From positions 1 through 24,543 of the IMG/VR virus record IMGVR_UViG_3300046692_000311: a DNA stretch of 24,543 nt. One strand, 5' to 3'. The notes beneath the pieces are model-generated. The model did no database searches. It saw nothing but the letters and a program-made list of their open reading frames with translations, and was not told where the DNA came from. The DNA is from a virus. This document shows, piece by piece, positions 222 to 15,429 of the stretch; within the stretch, counting starts at the first letter, position 1; each line of letters begins with the position of its first letter. The position numbers were made by a program, and so were the translations under genes.

Positions 222-1748
222 ATGAATGCTCCAGTTTCTCCGATTCTAACGCCTGACTTTAATAGCTCTAGCCCTGCTGTTTTATTGCCTTATCAGCAGG
301 CTTGGATTACAGATAAAAGCCAACTTAAGGTGGCTGAAAAGTCACGTCGTATCGGATTGACTTGGGCTGAAGCCGCAGATGTTGTATTGCAAGCCATGTC
401 TGAGGGCGGACAAAACGTTTACTACCTTGGTTATAACAAGGACATGACCGTTGAATTTATTCAAGCTTGTGCAATGTGGGCTAAAGCATTTAATGCCGCA
501 GCTATGGAAATTGAGGAAGGCGTTTGGGAGGATGGTGATAAGCACATTCAAACCTTCATCATTCGCTTTCCAAACTCTGGTAAACGAATTGAAGCACTGA
601 CCAGCCGACCATCTAACCTTCGTGGTCGGCAAGGTATTGTTATTTTGGATGAAGCGGGTTTCCATGAAAACCTTGATGAATTATTAAAGGCGGCATTAGC
701 CCTTTTAATTTGGGGTGGATCTGTTCGTGTCATTAGTACCCATGATGGTGAAGATAATCCATTTAATGAATTGATTAAGGAAATTCGTGCAGGTAAACGT
801 AAAGGTACAGTGCATCGCACTACCTTTAAGGAAGCGGTAGAACAAGGTCTGTACAAACGCGTTTGTTTACGTAAAGGTATCGAGTATAACCCCATAGAAG
901 AGCTGGCTTGGGTAGATGATGTTTATAGTTTTTATGGTGATGCAGCCGATGAAGAGTTGGATGTTATTCCAAGTAAAGGCGGTGGTCGTTGGTTAAGCCA
1001 AGCATTGCTAGAACAGCGTCAGAAAGAAGTGCCTATTATTCGCTGGTCTGCACCTAAAAACTTTGAGCAGTGGTCTGAAGAAGCACGTCATAATGAAATT
1101 GAGTTGTTATTTAATGATGTAATTAAGCCATTAATTGAGACTTTGCCTAAAAAGGTAAAAAGCTTTTATGGTTTGGACTTTGCTCGTCGGTCTGATCTTT
1201 GTGTATTTTGGCCTTTGATTGAATACCAGGACACCCGTAAGCACTGCCCTTTTGTGCTTGAACTTTCCAATATGCCTTATAAGCAACAGGAACAATTATT
1301 TAAACTGATTGCTAAGGCATTGCCGAACTTTAGCAAAGGCGCGCATGATGCAACAGGTAACGGTGGTTATTTAGCTGAAGCAATGCAGTTAGCATTTGGT
1401 GAAAAAATTGAAGCAATACATTTAAGTGAAGGATGGTATCGAGAACATACCCCGCACTTTAAAGCAGCGTTAGAAGATGGTGATATTGTAACTATACCTA
1501 AAGATAAAGACATTATGGATGATCACCGTGCCTTTGTACTGGTGAATGGTGTTGCACGGATTCCACAGAAAAGAGCTACAGGCTCAGACGGCTTAAAGCG
1601 ACATGGAGATAGTGCGATTGCCCATCTTCTTGCTGACTATGCCAGCAAGAATCCGACTGGGACGATTGAGTTTATTCCACTTCAAAATAAAAACTCTTTG
1701 GAGTTAGAAGATCATATCGAATCAGATAAATCCAATTACTGGATGTAA
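222..1748 (+). CDS. Large terminase subunit, Mu gp28-like
   Basis: This 508-residue protein is the ATP-driven motor and nuclease that packages DNA into the prohead. A Walker A-like segment SRRIGLTW lies at residues 41-48, Walker B IVILDE at 139-144 followed by AGFH, and a coupling-type motif ISTHDG at 171-176. The C-terminal RNase H-like nuclease has the expected acidic residues: D319 (YGLDFARRSDL), D376 (HDATGNGG) and D463 (HGDSAIAHLLA). Length and motif order are those of the Mu gp28 family. The start follows the small terminase stop after two bases. The last 27 bases overlap, tail to tail, the end of the minus-strand moron at 1722-2534, so the accessory block abuts this gene without disrupting it. 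Confidence 0.92.
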   Translation: MNAPVSPILTPDFNSSSPAVLLPYQQAWITDKSQLKVAEKSRRIGLTWAEAADVVLQAMSEGGQNVYYLGYNKDMTVEFIQACAMWAKAFNAAAMEIEEGVWEDGDKHIQTFIIRFPNSGKRIEALTSRPSNLRGRQGIVILDEAGFHENLDELLKAALALLIWGGSVRVISTHDGEDNPFNELIKEIRAGKRKGTVHRTTFKEAVEQGLYKRVCLRKGIEYNPIEELAWVDDVYSFYGDAADEELDVIPSKGGGRWLSQALLEQRQKEVPIIRWSAPKNFEQWSEEARHNEIELLFNDVIKPLIETLPKKVKSFYGLDFARRSDLCVFWPLIEYQDTRKHCPFVLELSNMPYKQQEQLFKLIAKALPNFSKGAHDATGNGGYLAEAMQLAFGEKIEAIHLSEGWYREHTPHFKAALEDGDIVTIPKDKDIMDDHRAFVLVNGVARIPQKRATGSDGLKRHGDSAIAHLLADYASKNPTGTIEFIPLQNKNSLELEDHIESDKSNYWM

Positions 1749-2534
1749 GCTGACAAATACATAATTAAATTTCATATTTTTATTTACTTCAATATGAAAG
1801 TTTTTTTTGTAGAATTTACCCAAGACGTCCGCATAATTTATAGTAATATTTTTTGTAAACTTATTGCCTGAATTAATACTATCCAAGTCTTCTCCCATAT
1901 ATTCAAAATCAATAGTTATACACTCTCCAACTTCAGCTTGGAAAACCGACTTTAAAATTCCTCCACTTTTGATATCATCAACTTGGATTCTTCGAGCTTC
2001 ATTACTTTTAATTTCTATTAACAGACTAAAAGAACCAATTTCAACAGTTACTTCATTTACTTGCTCGTCATTATTATCAAATATAGGGAAATCTACATCC
2101 TTAGTTTTAAATTCAGATAACTTAACCACTAAATTTGGTTCATTTTGAAAATGCCGTTGTACCATTTCATCTGTTGCAAGCTTAACTAATTGTTTCTGGC
2201 CATCAGCTGTAGATTTTAATTCTGTTGCCTGTAAAGCAAGAGCTTGAGAAGACTTTTGAAGCTCCTGTGCCTGTATATTCAAAGCCTCAGAGTTTTGTTT
2301 AAGCCCTTTACCTTGTTGATAAAACCCCCTTACCAACCAAAAAAATGCTAAAGGGGCAAATGCCCCTGCAACAAAATCACCAAACTCATTTAAGCTAGAA
2401 GGTAATGTCCCATTCTTAATTTTGAGGTAAATAAAAATCAACCAAGCAAATGTAATAGCCCAGGACAAGCAACTACCTAAATTATTCTTAATAAAATTAT
2501 ATATAATTTTTAATTTACCCACTGTTACTTTCAT
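1722..2534 (-). CDS. Membrane-anchored coiled-coil moron protein, paralogue A
   Basis: This 270-residue protein has two hydrophobic N-terminal segments (about 22-38 and 53-72), a long coiled-coil-like stretch (about 75-130) with repeated LQAQEL/LQATEL units, then a soluble beta-rich C-terminal domain. The segment GDFVAGAFAPLAFFWLV followed by YQQGKGL is nearly the same as in its upstream neighbour (2531-3313), so the two are paralogues. Its start overlaps the neighbour's stop in an ATGA junction, which implies co-translation. The orientation is opposite to the structural genes. The function is unknown. The two-helix plus coiled-coil layout, with a GDF motif, superficially recalls putative AbiC-type phage-exclusion proteins, so a role in superinfection exclusion is a hypothesis only. 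The reading frame runs 27 bases into the 3' end of the terminase gene. Confidence 0.8.
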   Translation of the reverse strand: MKVTVGKLKIIYNFIKNNLGSCLSWAITFAWLIFIYLKIKNGTLPSSLNEFGDFVAGAFAPLAFFWLVRGFYQQGKGLKQNSEALNIQAQELQKSSQALALQATELKSTADGQKQLVKLATDEMVQRHFQNEPNLVVKLSEFKTKDVDFPIFDNNDEQVNEVTVEIGSFSLLIEIKSNEARRIQVDDIKSGGILKSVFQAEVGECITIDFEYMGEDLDSINSGNKFTKNITINYADVLGKFYKKNFHIEVNKNMKFNYVFVSLHPVIGFI

Positions 2535-3313
2535 GCTTTTGTATCTTCAAATAATCCATATAATGTGGTAAAGCTATGTTCCTCATTCATCATCATTGAA
2601 GGAGATACATCTATTGTGGCAACTTGTTCAACTCTAACTCCATTTTCAGTCATATAGCTGACTAAAACTTTAAATAAAATATATTTATCTAATAATAAAA
2701 TATATTCATTGTCATTTAACTCATACTCTAAATTTAAAGTTTCCTTATATTCCCAACTAGGAAACTGGTTAGATATTGCATTATCAGAATTAGTTATTCT
2801 TACAGTAACTTTATGAACAACTGCCCCTACATTAATCAGTTTAAATTTTAAAGTACAATTTCTAAGATACGGTGCTTGTCCTAAAGCTAAAGCGAAACCA
2901 TCGACAGCTTTTTTATCTTGCACAAATAAACTAGATATCTCAAATTTTGCTCTTGCTTTATAGTTCCTTTCATCTAGCTCTAATTTATAAAATTTAGATA
3001 TTTCTTTCTGCTGATCAACTGATGCTCTCATCTCTTGAACTTGTAAATTAAGGGCTTCAGTACTTGCTTGTAACTCCTGTGCCTGCAAATTAAGTGCATG
3101 TGAGTTTTGTTCAAGACCTTTACCTTGTTGGTAAAAGCCCGCCACAAGCCAAAAAAAGCCCAGGGGAGCAAACGCCCCAGCTAAGAAATCACCAATAGAA
3201 TTTAAATCAAGATCTGTCAATGTTTGCCTTTTTAATACAACTAAACAAGCCATTACAACTATCCATAATAGGGATATTGATGCTACATATTTTTCTGAAA
3301 ATATTTTATTCAT
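2531..3313 (-). CDS. Membrane-anchored coiled-coil moron protein, paralogue B
   Basis: This 260-residue protein is the promoter-proximal gene of the minus-strand pair. It has hydrophobic segments at about 11-27 and 42-60, the motif GDFLAGAFAPLGFFWLV, then YQQGKGLEQN and a coiled-coil-like stretch to about residue 125 with repeated LQAQEL/LQVQEM units. The C-terminal half (about 120-260) is soluble and differs clearly from that of paralogue A. The conserved anchor with a diverged C-terminal half suggests duplication followed by change in the effector or sensor part. Transcription probably starts in the 171-base divergent spacer 3314-3484. The function is not recognised. Expression from the prophage independent of late genes is likely, given the opposite strand and its own spacer. 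Confidence 0.8.
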   Translation of the reverse strand: MNKIFSEKYVASISLLWIVVMACLVVLKRQTLTDLDLNSIGDFLAGAFAPLGFFWLVAGFYQQGKGLEQNSHALNLQAQELQASTEALNLQVQEMRASVDQQKEISKFYKLELDERNYKARAKFEISSLFVQDKKAVDGFALALGQAPYLRNCTLKFKLINVGAVVHKVTVRITNSDNAISNQFPSWEYKETLNLEYELNDNEYILLLDKYILFKVLVSYMTENGVRVEQVATIDVSPSMMMNEEHSFTTLYGLFEDTKA

Positions 3314-3356
3314 AAGCTTTTATTTAAGGTAAAGTCCCATATTCTTAATGGGCTAA

Positions 3357-3362
3357 ATTATA
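3357..3362 (-). promoter_or_regulatory. Candidate -10 box for the minus-strand moron pair
   Basis: Read on the minus strand this is a perfect TATAAT preceded by TG, 44 bases upstream of the ATG at 3313. The -35 region about 17 bases further upstream (TTAGCT) is a poor match to TTGACA, and a G/C-rich run near 3372-3377 lies between. It is the best promoter candidate for the 3313-1722 pair in an otherwise very AT-rich spacer, where chance TATAAT matches are common. Confidence 0.4.
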
Positions 3363-3484
3363 CACTTCTAACGGGGGAGCTAATGAAATTTATAAATATA
3401 ATCAAAATTGATTTCGCAAATTTTTAATTTAATTAAAAAAGAATTAAGATAATTAAAAATTTTAAACAAAGCTAATGAGGGGTT

Positions 3485-3943
3485 ATGAAATCAGTTTTTA
3501 GATGGGTGCTACTACTTATAGGCGCTTTGGCTTTAGGATTTGTACTAGTGATAGCTTCTTTAGCAACAAAAGATGCATATTTGACCCAAAGAACATCACT
3601 CTTCATATTTATTTTTATGTGGCTTGTTGTTTGGCTTGGCACAGGTTTTTTTCTCAAAAAACAAGGGAAAGTTAAACAACCTTTCGCTCAAGGCTTTTTG
3701 CCAGGAATGATAGTTTCGGGTGTATTTTTATCTGCATTAAGTTACTTAACCCCATCTCACGAAGAATTACTTGAGAAAGCTCAGAAAGCGGAACAGGAGT
3801 ATTTTCTATTATCAGCAGGGTCTTTAAACCACAATCGTATATGTAGTGCAGCTAGAGAAGCTTATTTGAATTACGACAAAGCAAAAATGGAAGATAAAAC
3901 TAAGCTCTTTGAATACATTATCATTACAGATAAATGTTTATAA
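3485..3943 (+). CDS. Small three-helix membrane protein, unknown
   Basis: The 152-residue product has three hydrophobic segments, at about residues 4-29, 38-58 and 70-88, then a polar helical tail (about 90-152) with cysteines near residues 119 and 151. A GAGGGG run at 3477-3482 sits just before the ATG and supports the start, although the spacing is short. It is transcribed divergently from the membrane-protein pair and is followed by a 210-base spacer and the methyltransferase gene. The family is not recognised. It lies between terminase and portal, far from where Mu keeps its lysis genes, and has no holin-like dual-start pattern, so I read it as a moron rather than a holin. A role in host envelope alteration or exclusion is possible but not shown. 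Confidence 0.65.
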   Translation: MKSVFRWVLLLIGALALGFVLVIASLATKDAYLTQRTSLFIFIFMWLVVWLGTGFFLKKQGKVKQPFAQGFLPGMIVSGVFLSALSYLTPSHEELLEKAQKAEQEYFLLSAGSLNHNRICSAAREAYLNYDKAKMEDKTKLFEYIIITDKCL

Positions 3944-4020
3944 ATTAGAGTTTCTGCTGCGCAATAAATTTGGATCTATTTCCAAAAATTTTAATGTCAT
4001 TTCTAATTAAAAATAAGAAC

Positions 4021-12213: not shown

Positions 12214-12882
12214 ATGAGTTTAAATATTCAAACTGAGGTTAATTTAGATATGACAGTTCGTATTACTGGACGCGACCAAGTCACTGGTGCAGATATCGGT
12301 AAATTAAATGCACTCTTTGAAGCCGTAGAAAGCTTGGGTGGCACCATCAATTATCCAAATCCTACAACTCCAGTGACTCCTGACTTTATCAACTGTACCT
12401 ATGATGGAGATGTACTGAGCTACACAGGCGGTACAGTCCACATTGGTGATATGACTGTTGCAGGTTTAGTTGGTGCAATGGACTTCCCTGTGGGGGCTAC
12501 GGCACGTTTTCGTCTAAGCAAGACAAGCCATGAGCAAATGCTTTTATCTTTTGGTACTGCAAATGCACAAGCCCAAAATGACCGAAATAATGCACTGACC
12601 ATTAGTTCTGTTTCTCCATCGGCATTGACCTTACAGATTTCAAAACATGGAAATGATTTGGAACCCGTCCGTCTAGATGAAATAGATGCCTATAAAATTA
12701 CTGCTCATCGTGCAACAGCAACATCTATATTCTTAAATTTCTATGACTCAGCAGATGAGCTTCTTGGAATGCGTGAAGTAATGGACGTGGAAGCCAACCG
12801 TTTCTGGTTGGGTGTGACTTTGGCTTCAGAACAATCCGTTTTTACCTCAGAGATTTTTATCTCCACACCAGCTGAGTCTTAA
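12214..12882 (+). CDS. Unrecognised beta-rich structural protein
   Basis: The 222-residue product has no family I recognise. It begins with a short charged helix-containing part (about 1-45), a Pro/Thr linker PNPTTPVTP near residue 50, and then alternating hydrophobic strands that look like one jelly-roll or lectin-like beta domain (about 55-220). It sits tightly between gp37 and the sheath, in the slot of the small Mu gp38, but is about three times longer. Its ending eight bases before the sheath gene's Shine-Dalgarno region implies one operon. A virion surface or tail decoration role is reasonable from the position and fold type. The start is supported only by weak GAGA. Confidence 0.6.
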   Translation: MSLNIQTEVNLDMTVRITGRDQVTGADIGKLNALFEAVESLGGTINYPNPTTPVTPDFINCTYDGDVLSYTGGTVHIGDMTVAGLVGAMDFPVGATARFRLSKTSHEQMLLSFGTANAQAQNDRNNALTISSVSPSALTLQISKHGNDLEPVRLDEIDAYKITAHRATATSIFLNFYDSADELLGMREVMDVEANRFWLGVTLASEQSVFTSEIFISTPAES

Positions 12883-12891
12883 GGGGGAATT

Positions 12892-13545
12892 ATGCCTATT
12901 CAAAAAGGTATTCGTACACCAGGTATGTATACAGACGTCAATATCAATACACAGCGTACAGGCTTACCCGCAAACACGCACAAGGTATTGTTTGTGACGC
13001 CAGATGCTGCTGTTGAAGAATTGACTAGCCCTGTCAGTATTTATAACCGTAATGAAGCAGACCAAAGTTTTGGTCGAAATTCAGTCATGGGGCGAATGAT
13101 TACAGCCGCGATTCAAACCAATCGCCTAGTCGATGTACAGGGATTTTCTGATTCGTCAGAGTTTCAAATTAGCTGTGCAGATGCTCGTTCAACCATTTTC
13201 TTTAGCCCGTTTGACCTTAGTGAATCTTCATTTGAAATTGAACTAGATGGCGTTACTTATACTGATGGTAGCGGTGAAATTGGTTACTACATTAATAACC
13301 ATCCAGTTTTGAGTCAGGTATTAGATGCTGATCAGGATGGCTATTTAAGAGTTGATAATCTAGATACCCAAAAGTTTCATCGAGTTCGAATCAATTTTAC
13401 AGGCTTACTTCCAGCTTCACATAAGATTGGGATTGCTAACCCTCCTAATACAGCTTATTCAATTGAACATGATGACGGTGCTGTGAAATCTATCTCGTTC
13501 TGCTTAGCACCAGTTGAACCTATCGGCCCACTTCCTCAAGGGTAA
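12892..13545 (+). CDS. Tail sheath, N-terminal subunit of a split sheath
   Basis: Residues 1 to about 90 match the N-terminal domain of Mu/P2-type tail sheath proteins: PGMYTDVNINTQRTGLPANTHKVLFV, then VSIYNRNEADQSFGRNSVMGRMITAAIQTNR. From about residue 95 to 217 the protein departs from the family and becomes a beta-rich domain of unknown type (SSFEIELDGVTYTDGSGEIGYY and onward), ending with a TAA. The expected sheath body is not in this frame but in the next gene. A strong AGGGGGA at 12882-12888 precedes the ATG. The 47-base spacer to the next gene has stops in both relevant frames, so this is not a simple frameshift. The split looks natural. Confidence 0.8.
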   Translation: MPIQKGIRTPGMYTDVNINTQRTGLPANTHKVLFVTPDAAVEELTSPVSIYNRNEADQSFGRNSVMGRMITAAIQTNRLVDVQGFSDSSEFQISCADARSTIFFSPFDLSESSFEIELDGVTYTDGSGEIGYYINNHPVLSQVLDADQDGYLRVDNLDTQKFHRVRINFTGLLPASHKIGIANPPNTAYSIEHDDGAVKSISFCLAPVEPIGPLPQG

Positions 13546-13592
13546 TTTAATTTAAAAATTCACAGGAATTTATCCAAATTGGGAAAAATGAA

Positions 13593-14393
13593 ATGAGTAT
13601 TCAAGAAAAGATTGCCCCGCTGGGACATACGATTATTGCGCTTTCTGAGCCGCCAAAAACACCGTTAGAGATTTTGGCATGGATTGATCATTTAAATTCA
13701 GTCAGTGACCCAATTAACCAAAAGCCTGCGATTTTAGTTGTGCCATTCTCTAATGTAGAAGACGCTGAAGACTTTGCCGCTGGACCTCCAATTAAAACCA
13801 GCTATCGCGTGGTTTGTGTTTGTTACCATGGTGCACATGGTGAAGAACCTGAACTTGCAGCTGCAATGGCTGCGGCATTGGCGGACTCTAACGATCCAGC
13901 TCTACCATTCAACGGTGTGAACTTAAATGGTATTACGCCCGTTGAGGATCAATACAAACTGACCTTTGAGCGTGTTGAAGCGGCACTTCGTAAAGGTGTT
14001 TGTATGATTCAAACTGGTGCTGATGGTGTACCAGAGATTGTTCGTGCTATCTCAACCTATCGTACGAATCCTGATACTGGCATTGATGATGACATTATGC
14101 TCGACATTAATGGCGTACTAACCATTGACTATGTACGTCAAGTCATGCGGATTGCCGCTTCAAAAGAACGTCGTCGTAAGAATACAGAAGCTGCTCGTCG
14201 TAACCTACGTTCAATTTTCTTAGTTGAGGCTCTTAAGCTTGACCGTGCTGAAATTTTACAAAATGTTGAAGCAACTAAAGACGAGCTAACTGTGACTGAA
14301 GACCCAACTGATCGCTACCGTGTCAATGCGGCTATTCCTTCAGATTGGGTGCGCGGTATGCACATCGTTGCGACTACACTGAACGTTTATTAA
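13593..14393 (+). CDS. Tail sheath, C-terminal body subunit of a split sheath
   Basis: The 266-residue product carries the contractile sheath body: a Rossmann-like part (HTIIALSEPP to VVPFS, about 12-52), then DPALPFNGVNLNGITPVED (101-119), ALRKGVCMIQ, RAISTYRTN (151-159), the LTIDYVRQVMRIAASK segment and the C-terminal arm NAAIPSDWVRGMHIVATTLNVY. These are the most conserved stretches of Mu gpL-type sheaths. It has its own GGGA (13581-13584) and ATG. Together the two parts are 483 residues, close to a normal single sheath. It ends before a bidirectional terminator shared with the convergent moron. Confidence 0.85.
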   Translation: MSIQEKIAPLGHTIIALSEPPKTPLEILAWIDHLNSVSDPINQKPAILVVPFSNVEDAEDFAAGPPIKTSYRVVCVCYHGAHGEEPELAAAMAAALADSNDPALPFNGVNLNGITPVEDQYKLTFERVEAALRKGVCMIQTGADGVPEIVRAISTYRTNPDTGIDDDIMLDINGVLTIDYVRQVMRIAASKERRRKNTEAARRNLRSIFLVEALKLDRAEILQNVEATKDELTVTEDPTDRYRVNAAIPSDWVRGMHIVATTLNVY

Positions 14394-14436: not shown

Positions 14437-14937
14437 TTACATACTATTTAATACTTGGGAAAGATATGGAATTAAATGCGGAATATTTTCCATACCTTTA
14501 TCTAATACACGAGTCATTACATGTCTTAATCCATCTGCGGGGAGTTCTTCAACAGCTTTCATAAGCTCACTTTTCTTTTCAGCTTCAATATCGGCAGAAT
14601 TTATCTTTGAAGTTAATAGTGCTTTTAATGTATCAGGCTCAAATCTAACGGTCACAACATTTAGTATTGCAGATAAACCACCATCTTCTTGTAAAAAATC
14701 CATTCCTCTACTAGTAATTTTTACATTACCAAGGCTTATTTGATTATCAATACTAAAAAAAATAGCATCTTTATCAAGAAATTTATTTTCTACTAAATAC
14801 TGCAATTCTCTGGCTAATTCTTTTTCATCTGTATTTTTCCATATTCCAGATGATAATTCTTCATAACTCAATGCAAATGGATAAGCATTTGCTGTTTGAA
14901 TTAAAATTTCTTGTTGTAAAGCTCTATTTAAAATCAT
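14437..14937 (-). CDS. Winged-helix-like moron protein, unknown
   Basis: The 166-residue product has an N-terminal part (about 1-85) that reads as a winged helix: helices ILIQTANAYP, SYEELSSGIW and ELARELQYLVENKFL, then strands and the ITSRGMDFLQEDGG wing region, as in phage DUF2513/YjcQ-like proteins. The C-terminal part (about 90-166) is helical with VVTVRFEPDTLKALLTSKI. It is antisense to the tail genes, has its own terminator, and lies between sheath and tube. A TATAAT on the minus strand at 14950-14955 could serve as -10, but only about 12 bases before the start. It may be a prophage-expressed regulator or a moron. The family similarity is by eye. Confidence 0.7.
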   Translation of the reverse strand: MILNRALQQEILIQTANAYPFALSYEELSSGIWKNTDEKELARELQYLVENKFLDKDAIFFSIDNQISLGNVKITSRGMDFLQEDGGLSAILNVVTVRFEPDTLKALLTSKINSADIEAEKKSELMKAVEELPADGLRHVMTRVLDKGMENIPHLIPYLSQVLNSM

Positions 14938-15057: not shown

Positions 15058-15429
15058 ATGGCTGAAGAAGTCGTTGGTACGATTGTACTGAGCATTGACG
15101 GGACAGAATATGACTGTACCTCATGCAACCCGTCCGAAGTTACAGGAAACCGCCCAGTTCCCACCATGAACCGACAGCGTCGTACAAAGTACGTTGCCAA
15201 AGGCAATAAGGCATATAGCCTATCCATTGAAACTGTTATTCCATTGGCTGGATCAATTGACTGGAGTTCGGTTGAAAATGCACGGCTGACTATGGAGTCT
15301 GAAGACGGCAGTTACCGTGAAACATACATCGATTGTTGGCCTCAAGAAATTGGTACATCAACAGGCGTAGAAGCGAATAATGCTGGTCGCTCTATTAGTT
15401 TATTTGCATTAGACAAAATCATTGAGTAA
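15058..15429 (+). CDS. Tail tube protein, Mu gp40 (gpM)-like
   Basis: The 123-residue protein forms the inner tube of the contractile tail. It matches the tail tube family in size and pattern: VVGTIVLSIDGTEYDCTS, NRQRRTKYVAKGNKAYSLSIETVIPL, then SWSSVENARLTMESEDGS-like (here DWSSVENARLTMESEDGSYRE) and a final short strand. AGAGGT upstream supports the ATG. It is the first gene after site 3 and starts a tail operon running to the tape measure. Confidence 0.88.
   Translation: MAEEVVGTIVLSIDGTEYDCTSCNPSEVTGNRPVPTMNRQRRTKYVAKGNKAYSLSIETVIPLAGSIDWSSVENARLTMESEDGSYRETYIDCWPQEIGTSTGVEANNAGRSISLFALDKIIE

Follow-up and report, generated by a model that had tools for sequence, protein, structure and literature searches.

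To our knowledge, the contractile sheaths of phages are regarded as single chains, and type VI secretion systems are the exception. The −1 frameshift site of lambda G/GT is G GGA AAG, and the products of these genes are tail assembly chaperones rather than virion proteins. Mu gpL and other single-chain sheaths of the Phage_sheath_1/1C type form one continuous chain, in which each subunit contains the extra domain, placed internally. The protruding domain I of T4 gp18 is inserted at chain residues 98-188 (PMC3004832). In TssB/TssC (VipA/VipB), two proteins make up each subunit: TssB supplies two core strands, and the break falls in outer domain 3, which is inserted in domain 2 after the two strands from TssB (PMC5807055). 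Phage PaBG also has two sheath gene products, and these are full-length paralogues that arose by duplication (PMC7412058). Recoding, for its part, is known to add domains to tubes and capsids (PMC9022992). In SPP1 gp17.1/gp17.1* and similar proteins with recoded Ig domains, a fraction of the repeating subunits is decorated (PMC9022992, PMC5009743), the unextended tube or capsid protein is already complete, and the shifts are +1 or −1. Five classes of virion proteins bearing Ig-like domains have been reviewed, sheaths not being included (PMC9022992), and extra domains of Ig-like type are described in a survey of sheaths, whose text, when searched, mentions neither a split nor a frameshift (PMC9230969). 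A search of the open-access literature yielded no report of a split or frameshifted sheath, nor any published precedent for the combination of split sheath, modules and frameshift described below.

The window analyzed here is the whole 24,543-nucleotide stretch of the IMG/VR virus record IMGVR_UViG_3300046692_000311. An earlier note, made from its letters alone, had claimed that the tail sheath is encoded by two separate genes, and the open reading frame list bears this out. The N gene (12892-13545, + strand) encodes 217 amino acids and the C gene (13593-14393, + strand) 266. The 47-base spacer between them (13546-13592, + strand) has stops in both frames, again as claimed: the N frame ends in TAA at 13543 and next meets a TGA that overlaps the C gene start, and the C frame contains a TAA inside the spacer. 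The sheath of the window is thus not a single polypeptide. Each gene had also been credited with its own ribosome binding site. This holds for the N gene, which has a strong Shine-Dalgarno sequence, AAGGGGG (12881-12887, + strand), whereas all that precedes the C gene is a weak GGGA, about 10 nt away. A candidate heptamer in the spacer, TTGGGAAAA, was rejected because it lies past the N stop, and its likeliest role is that of a weak ribosome binding site.

Both products are recognizable as sheath. The N-part (12892-13152, + strand; approximately residues 1-87) would form the N-terminal arm and the first two core strands. Its residues 2-84 match phrog_5292 (E 1e-27), a 129-position family named tail sheath, and also positions 8-89 of phrog_165 (E 6e-11). 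The C-part, comprising the body and the C-terminal domain, matches positions 237-491 of that same family (E 8e-53), with Phage_sheath_1C (PF17482) above and Phage_sheath_1 (PF04984) below the Pfam cut-off, and is 52-86% identical to its relatives. A beta-rich surface module (13159-13542, + strand; residues 90-217) is fused in frame to the N-part. The surroundings are those of a Mu-like structural operon, with Gp36 and Gp37 families upstream and, downstream, a tail tube protein (15058-15429, + strand; phrog_185, E 4e-19), which would be expected to partner the sheath. One opposite-strand gene separates the tube gene from the sheath C gene. The earlier note had held that a second full sheath gene would count against its claim; none was found in the 24,543-base record, which may be a fragment.

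We consider it quite probable that a single explanation covers the split subunit, the modules at its seam, their decoration level and a role in glycan binding. The two genes would yield two chains of one contractile sheath subunit, with the N chain and the C chain, which forms the rest of the subunit, folding together. The break would fall in a loop of the fold conserved among sheaths, just where Mu gpL and T4 gp18 bear extra outer domains. It would leave the N chain with a free C-terminus at or close to the outer face, a mounting point for additions that do not disturb the core. In most relatives, a short N chain would be made, and a −1 slip at G GGA AAG in a fraction of passes would add modules. 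Frameshifting would then set the share of decorated subunits, only some of which would carry a module. With its in-frame fusion, the window would be expected to carry a module on every N chain. In a third arrangement, a large gene lies between the halves, several of these genes being fibre- or enzyme-like. The best reading of the window genes is therefore a two-chain sheath that is topologically TssB/TssC-like and whose seam mounts variable surface modules.

Related loci were gathered by scans with C-part and N-part queries (20 of 176 Acinetobacter and 3 of 105 Psychrobacter species genomes). Removal of near-copies at a k-mer similarity threshold left 64 distinct N-bearing loci including the window, a count that depends on the dereplication threshold and on public contigs that are partly metagenomic. 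Among these, 29 are of the frameshift type, 18 have a large gene between the halves, five carry the module in frame (the window, L036, L162, L168 and, less cleanly, L083), 11 have one intact sheath gene of about 360 amino acids, and L075 is unclassified. The earlier note had advised looking for the same split in related prophages, and it recurs at the same point in approximately 53 of the 64 non-redundant loci, in both Acinetobacter and Psychrobacter. The split is shared by this many loci and both halves are conserved as coding sequence, which gives strong support to the claim that the sheath has two genes and an additional surface domain where they meet. Phage and plasmid records yielded distant sheaths only, and those inspected are full-length single chains.

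AlphaFold2 models the window module as eight strands and two short helices (pLDDT 82.6), in keeping with the beta-rich extra domain that had been proposed for the N-part. The module is homologous to the −1-frame modules of L026 (phmmer 2e-14) and L015 (7e-6), and the window therefore seems to hold an in-frame version of the same device. Its Foldseek matches are weak (best E 0.014, TM 0.41), a cyanophage sheath coming first and Ig V-type domains next, and no match was found in phage records. The family's modules are mosaic. A repeated domain that opens with (S/G)C-x-GA and closes with FCL(A/S)P makes up many of them, and others consist of LRR_5 or DUF285 repeats or are unrelated. The gene that lies between the halves in 18 relatives is 2-4 kb long and has its own start, and several such genes resemble those for fibres, esterases or sialidases. 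Four of these genes were inspected (L050, L024, L070 and L028), and all are large and fibre- or spike-like; one has a BNR_4 domain, one has GDSL lipase domains and one has a weak SASA esterase match. Three that were compared with PHROGs are at least partly like phage fibre families or phage families of unknown function.

Two further observations concern individual loci. In L005, the −1 module ORF (1642-2172) stops early and is followed by a second module ORF (2183-3976) with its own Shine-Dalgarno sequence, which suggests that modules can also turn into separate genes. In L035, a Psychrobacter prophage, an ORF between the module and the sheath C gene (3196-3765) looks glycosyltransferase-like by eye, without Pfam support, and perhaps its product modifies the module.

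The modules probably help virions to bind cell-surface glycans. Adhesion, which has been suggested for extra sheath domains generally (PMC9230969), is the likeliest use of the modules. The same survey names stabilisation as an alternative role of extra Ig-like sheath domains (PMC9230969), and it is conceivable that the modules chiefly stabilise or shield the sheath and do not bind cells. We regard this as somewhat unlikely, given that the modules are unusually diverse and mosaic, with LRR_5 and DUF285 repeats among them, and that genes of large size, encoding GDSL lipase, SASA esterase or BNR domains, occupy this seam in other loci. Returning to adhesion, the sheath appears to be a display surface as well as a spring. 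A bolder proposal, which we put forward only tentatively, is that the sheath is a tunable, hypervariable receptor-binding array, with frameshifted modules, or fibre- or enzyme-like proteins from separate genes, attached over the full length of the tail to the free end that a broken sheath subunit provides. If this were true, the contractile spring would itself be an adsorption organelle.

In the 29 relatives of the frameshift type, the N gene stops 0-12 codons past an in-frame, lambda-type slippery heptamer, TTGGGAAAG (G GGA AAG), whose preceding codon is TTG, GTG or CTG. From the heptamer, the −1 frame is open for 122-628 codons, with one exception of about 30 codons at a contig end, and the −1 ORF usually ends no more than 30 bases from the C gene. 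These relatives thus combine a heptamer, a prompt 0-frame stop and a long, constrained −1 ORF, as is expected of −1 frameshifting, and in E. coli G GGA AAG has been rated a highly shift-prone sequence (PMC5009743). The heptamer is how this group was initially identified. When loci were recounted without the motif, by overlap alone, the heptamer was present in 28 of the 29 loci in which a −1 ORF of at least 100 codons has an overlap of over 10 nt with the N stop, the exception being L075. The heptamer is absent from all 18 loci whose halves are separated by a large gene.

Codon usage and substitution patterns point in the same direction. All 29 sites use GGA, compared with 11% of glycine codons elsewhere, and all 29 use AAG, compared with 27%. 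These are the sole fully conserved degenerate codons common to the 29 N genes, which are related sequences whose counts are not independent trials and whose pairwise dS is commonly 0.5-1.6. For the −1 modules of the three closest pairs, dN/dS is approximately 0.08, 0.18 and 0.23, and the substitutions in these pairs pile up at third positions of the −1 frame. Judged by these sequence comparisons, the −1 regions encode proteins under purifying selection. The N genes of these relatives are predicted to give two products, one short and one extended by −1 frameshifting. Neither a consistent downstream RNA structure (mean z −0.62) nor a conserved upstream Shine-Dalgarno stimulator was found at the heptamer sites, and efficiency may therefore be low, as for lambda G/GT. 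If few ribosomes enter the module, then the 0.4-1.9 kb before the C gene would be largely untranslated, inviting polarity.

The window itself has no canonical slippery heptamer at its junction. The segment equivalent to the G GGA AAG of the relatives (13138-13149, + strand) reads CAG GGA TTT TCT, and because the module is fused in frame, a single N product is predicted. The same heptamer is also absent from the tail-chaperone region of the window. The Psychrobacter-type in-frame loci L162, L168, L036 and L083 retain G GGA AA(G/C), and there the −1 frame stops within approximately 1-4 codons. Since the module of these loci lies in frame 0, a shift would produce the short form. This small sample of four loci suggests that selection keeps two forms of the N chain rather than a particular frame.

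Perhaps the module ORFs are instead independent genes that start within the N gene, by translational coupling or reinitiation, and are not −1 extensions at all. In many relatives the −1 reading is indeed preceded, four codons earlier, by a start codon that is usually ATG (in a CAATGC context), and an ATG occurs within the scanned region in 17 of the 29. However, 12 of the 29 have no ATG and four have no start codon of any kind there, while the heptamer is found in every one. A Shine-Dalgarno sequence accompanies only 1 of 29 module starts but 39 of 51 C genes, and reinitiation offers no explanation for the immediate −1 stops in L162, L168, L083 and L036. We therefore consider independent starts improbable and favor extension by frameshifting. 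Because a module often lacks its own start codon, module genes are easily misannotated.

Evidence that the two halves belong to one fold comes from the relatives with a single gene. In the 362-aa sheath of L006, L007 and L010, residues 1-81 correspond to the N-part and residues 97-362 to the C-part, with a short linker between them. An AlphaFold2 model of the L007 chain (54-row alignment; pLDDT 85.7, pTM 0.86) places the seam in the loop between strand 79-83 and helix 96-106, and the N-part gives core strands 31-35 and 79-83. The best PDB match of this model is the Mu sheath gpL (9khy, E 1.7e-15), and diffocin and other phage sheaths match as well. A profile search recovers gpL too and aligns the N-part with its residues 13-94 and the C-part with 310-486, or with about 256-486 over all comparisons to gpL, and gpL therefore has additional residues at this seam. 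The order of secondary-structure elements leads us to infer that the seam positions in Mu gpL, T4 gp18 and TssB/TssC are equivalent.

The C-part comprises the bigger conserved body together with the C-terminal domain of sheaths, and the genes for the N-part carry adhesin-like modules, so one could imagine that the C-part builds the sheath alone and that the N product is a minor decoration or adaptor. This is highly improbable, since the N-part supplies two core strands of the fold, the single-gene homologues hold the same residues in one chain, and, of the 83 loci in the first scan, all but five have the N-part, a contig end cutting off the upstream side in at least three of these five. A subunit formed by both chains remains our preferred reading.

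In a maximum-likelihood tree of the C-part, all single-gene sheaths form one clade (98/96) nested among split lineages, and for this reason the single state is probably derived in this sheath family. The window adjoins the frameshift-type L004 (91/95). On a parsimonious reading of the tree, in which many deep forks are unresolved, the split would be the older state among these sheaths, and the single gene would represent either a derived fusion or a retention. That the split instead reflects recent breakage of an ordinary single sheath gene, through mutation, assembly error or prophage decay, is scarcely credible despite the intact gene of about 360 amino acids in close relatives (L006, L007, L010 and others), given the shared split position in both genera, the open frames of both halves, the low dN/dS of the N-part and modules where measured, and the nesting of the single-gene forms. 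A pseudogene or an assembly error is rejected on the conservation of the split, the low dN/dS and the tree. The earlier note had likewise seen decay in neither half. It had also named, as grounds for abandoning its claim, close relatives with a single gene and a split present only here; such relatives do exist, as one nested clade, but the split is not confined to the window.

The described systems each share some features with this sheath. Mu gpL and its single-chain relatives have the same fold, and gpL too has an extra stretch at the seam, but their chains are continuous. The parallel with TssB/TssC that the earlier note had drawn stands as a matter of topology, both splits falling after the second core strand, the site at which outer-layer domains are inserted, although the split here is known from genes. 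It does not extend to homology specific to TssB/TssC, which was not found, the nearest relative being Mu gpL. None of the 50 matches listed is TssB/TssC, all being phage sheaths, and the surroundings of the window are those of a Mu-like phage, not a type VI secretion gene context. The split phage sheath also shows no visible ClpV-recycling feature, and TssB/TssC have no frameshift-added modules. Decoration of a fraction of repeating subunits is predicted here and known from the SPP1-type proteins. However, what carries the extension in our case is half of a split sheath, with modules that are multiple and varied in kind. The heptamer is that of lambda G/GT, but those chaperones are not part of the virion. 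Like PaBG, the window has two sheath gene products in one phage, but they are two halves of one fold and not paralogues.

A two-chain sheath in a family of Acinetobacter and Psychrobacter phages that resemble Mu implies that phages can give rise to the split, or retain it, and offers a natural comparison for asking why type VI secretion systems split their sheath. The conserved frameshift site would place the sheath among the few virion proteins decorated in controlled proportion by recoding. The seam is an apparent hot spot for the exchange of probable adhesins, which is relevant to host-range prediction in Acinetobacter.

Several minor observations deserve mention. A vesicle proteome of A. 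baumannii includes a sheath-like product of a Mu-like prophage (PMC6118003). The opposite-strand gene between the sheath C and tube genes of the window (14437-14937, − strand) matches phrog_3983, a family of unknown function, and is moron-like. Immediately upstream of the N gene, a gene for 222 amino acids (12214-12882, + strand) belongs to no Pfam or PHROG family, and its homologues were found only upstream of the N gene in the frameshift-type loci L001, L034, L042, L029, L017 and L016. Finally, two adjacent, similar proteins of 270 and 260 amino acids with hydrophobic N-terminal segments are encoded beside the terminase gene (1722-3313, − strand), and this pair resembles a duplicated cargo pair.
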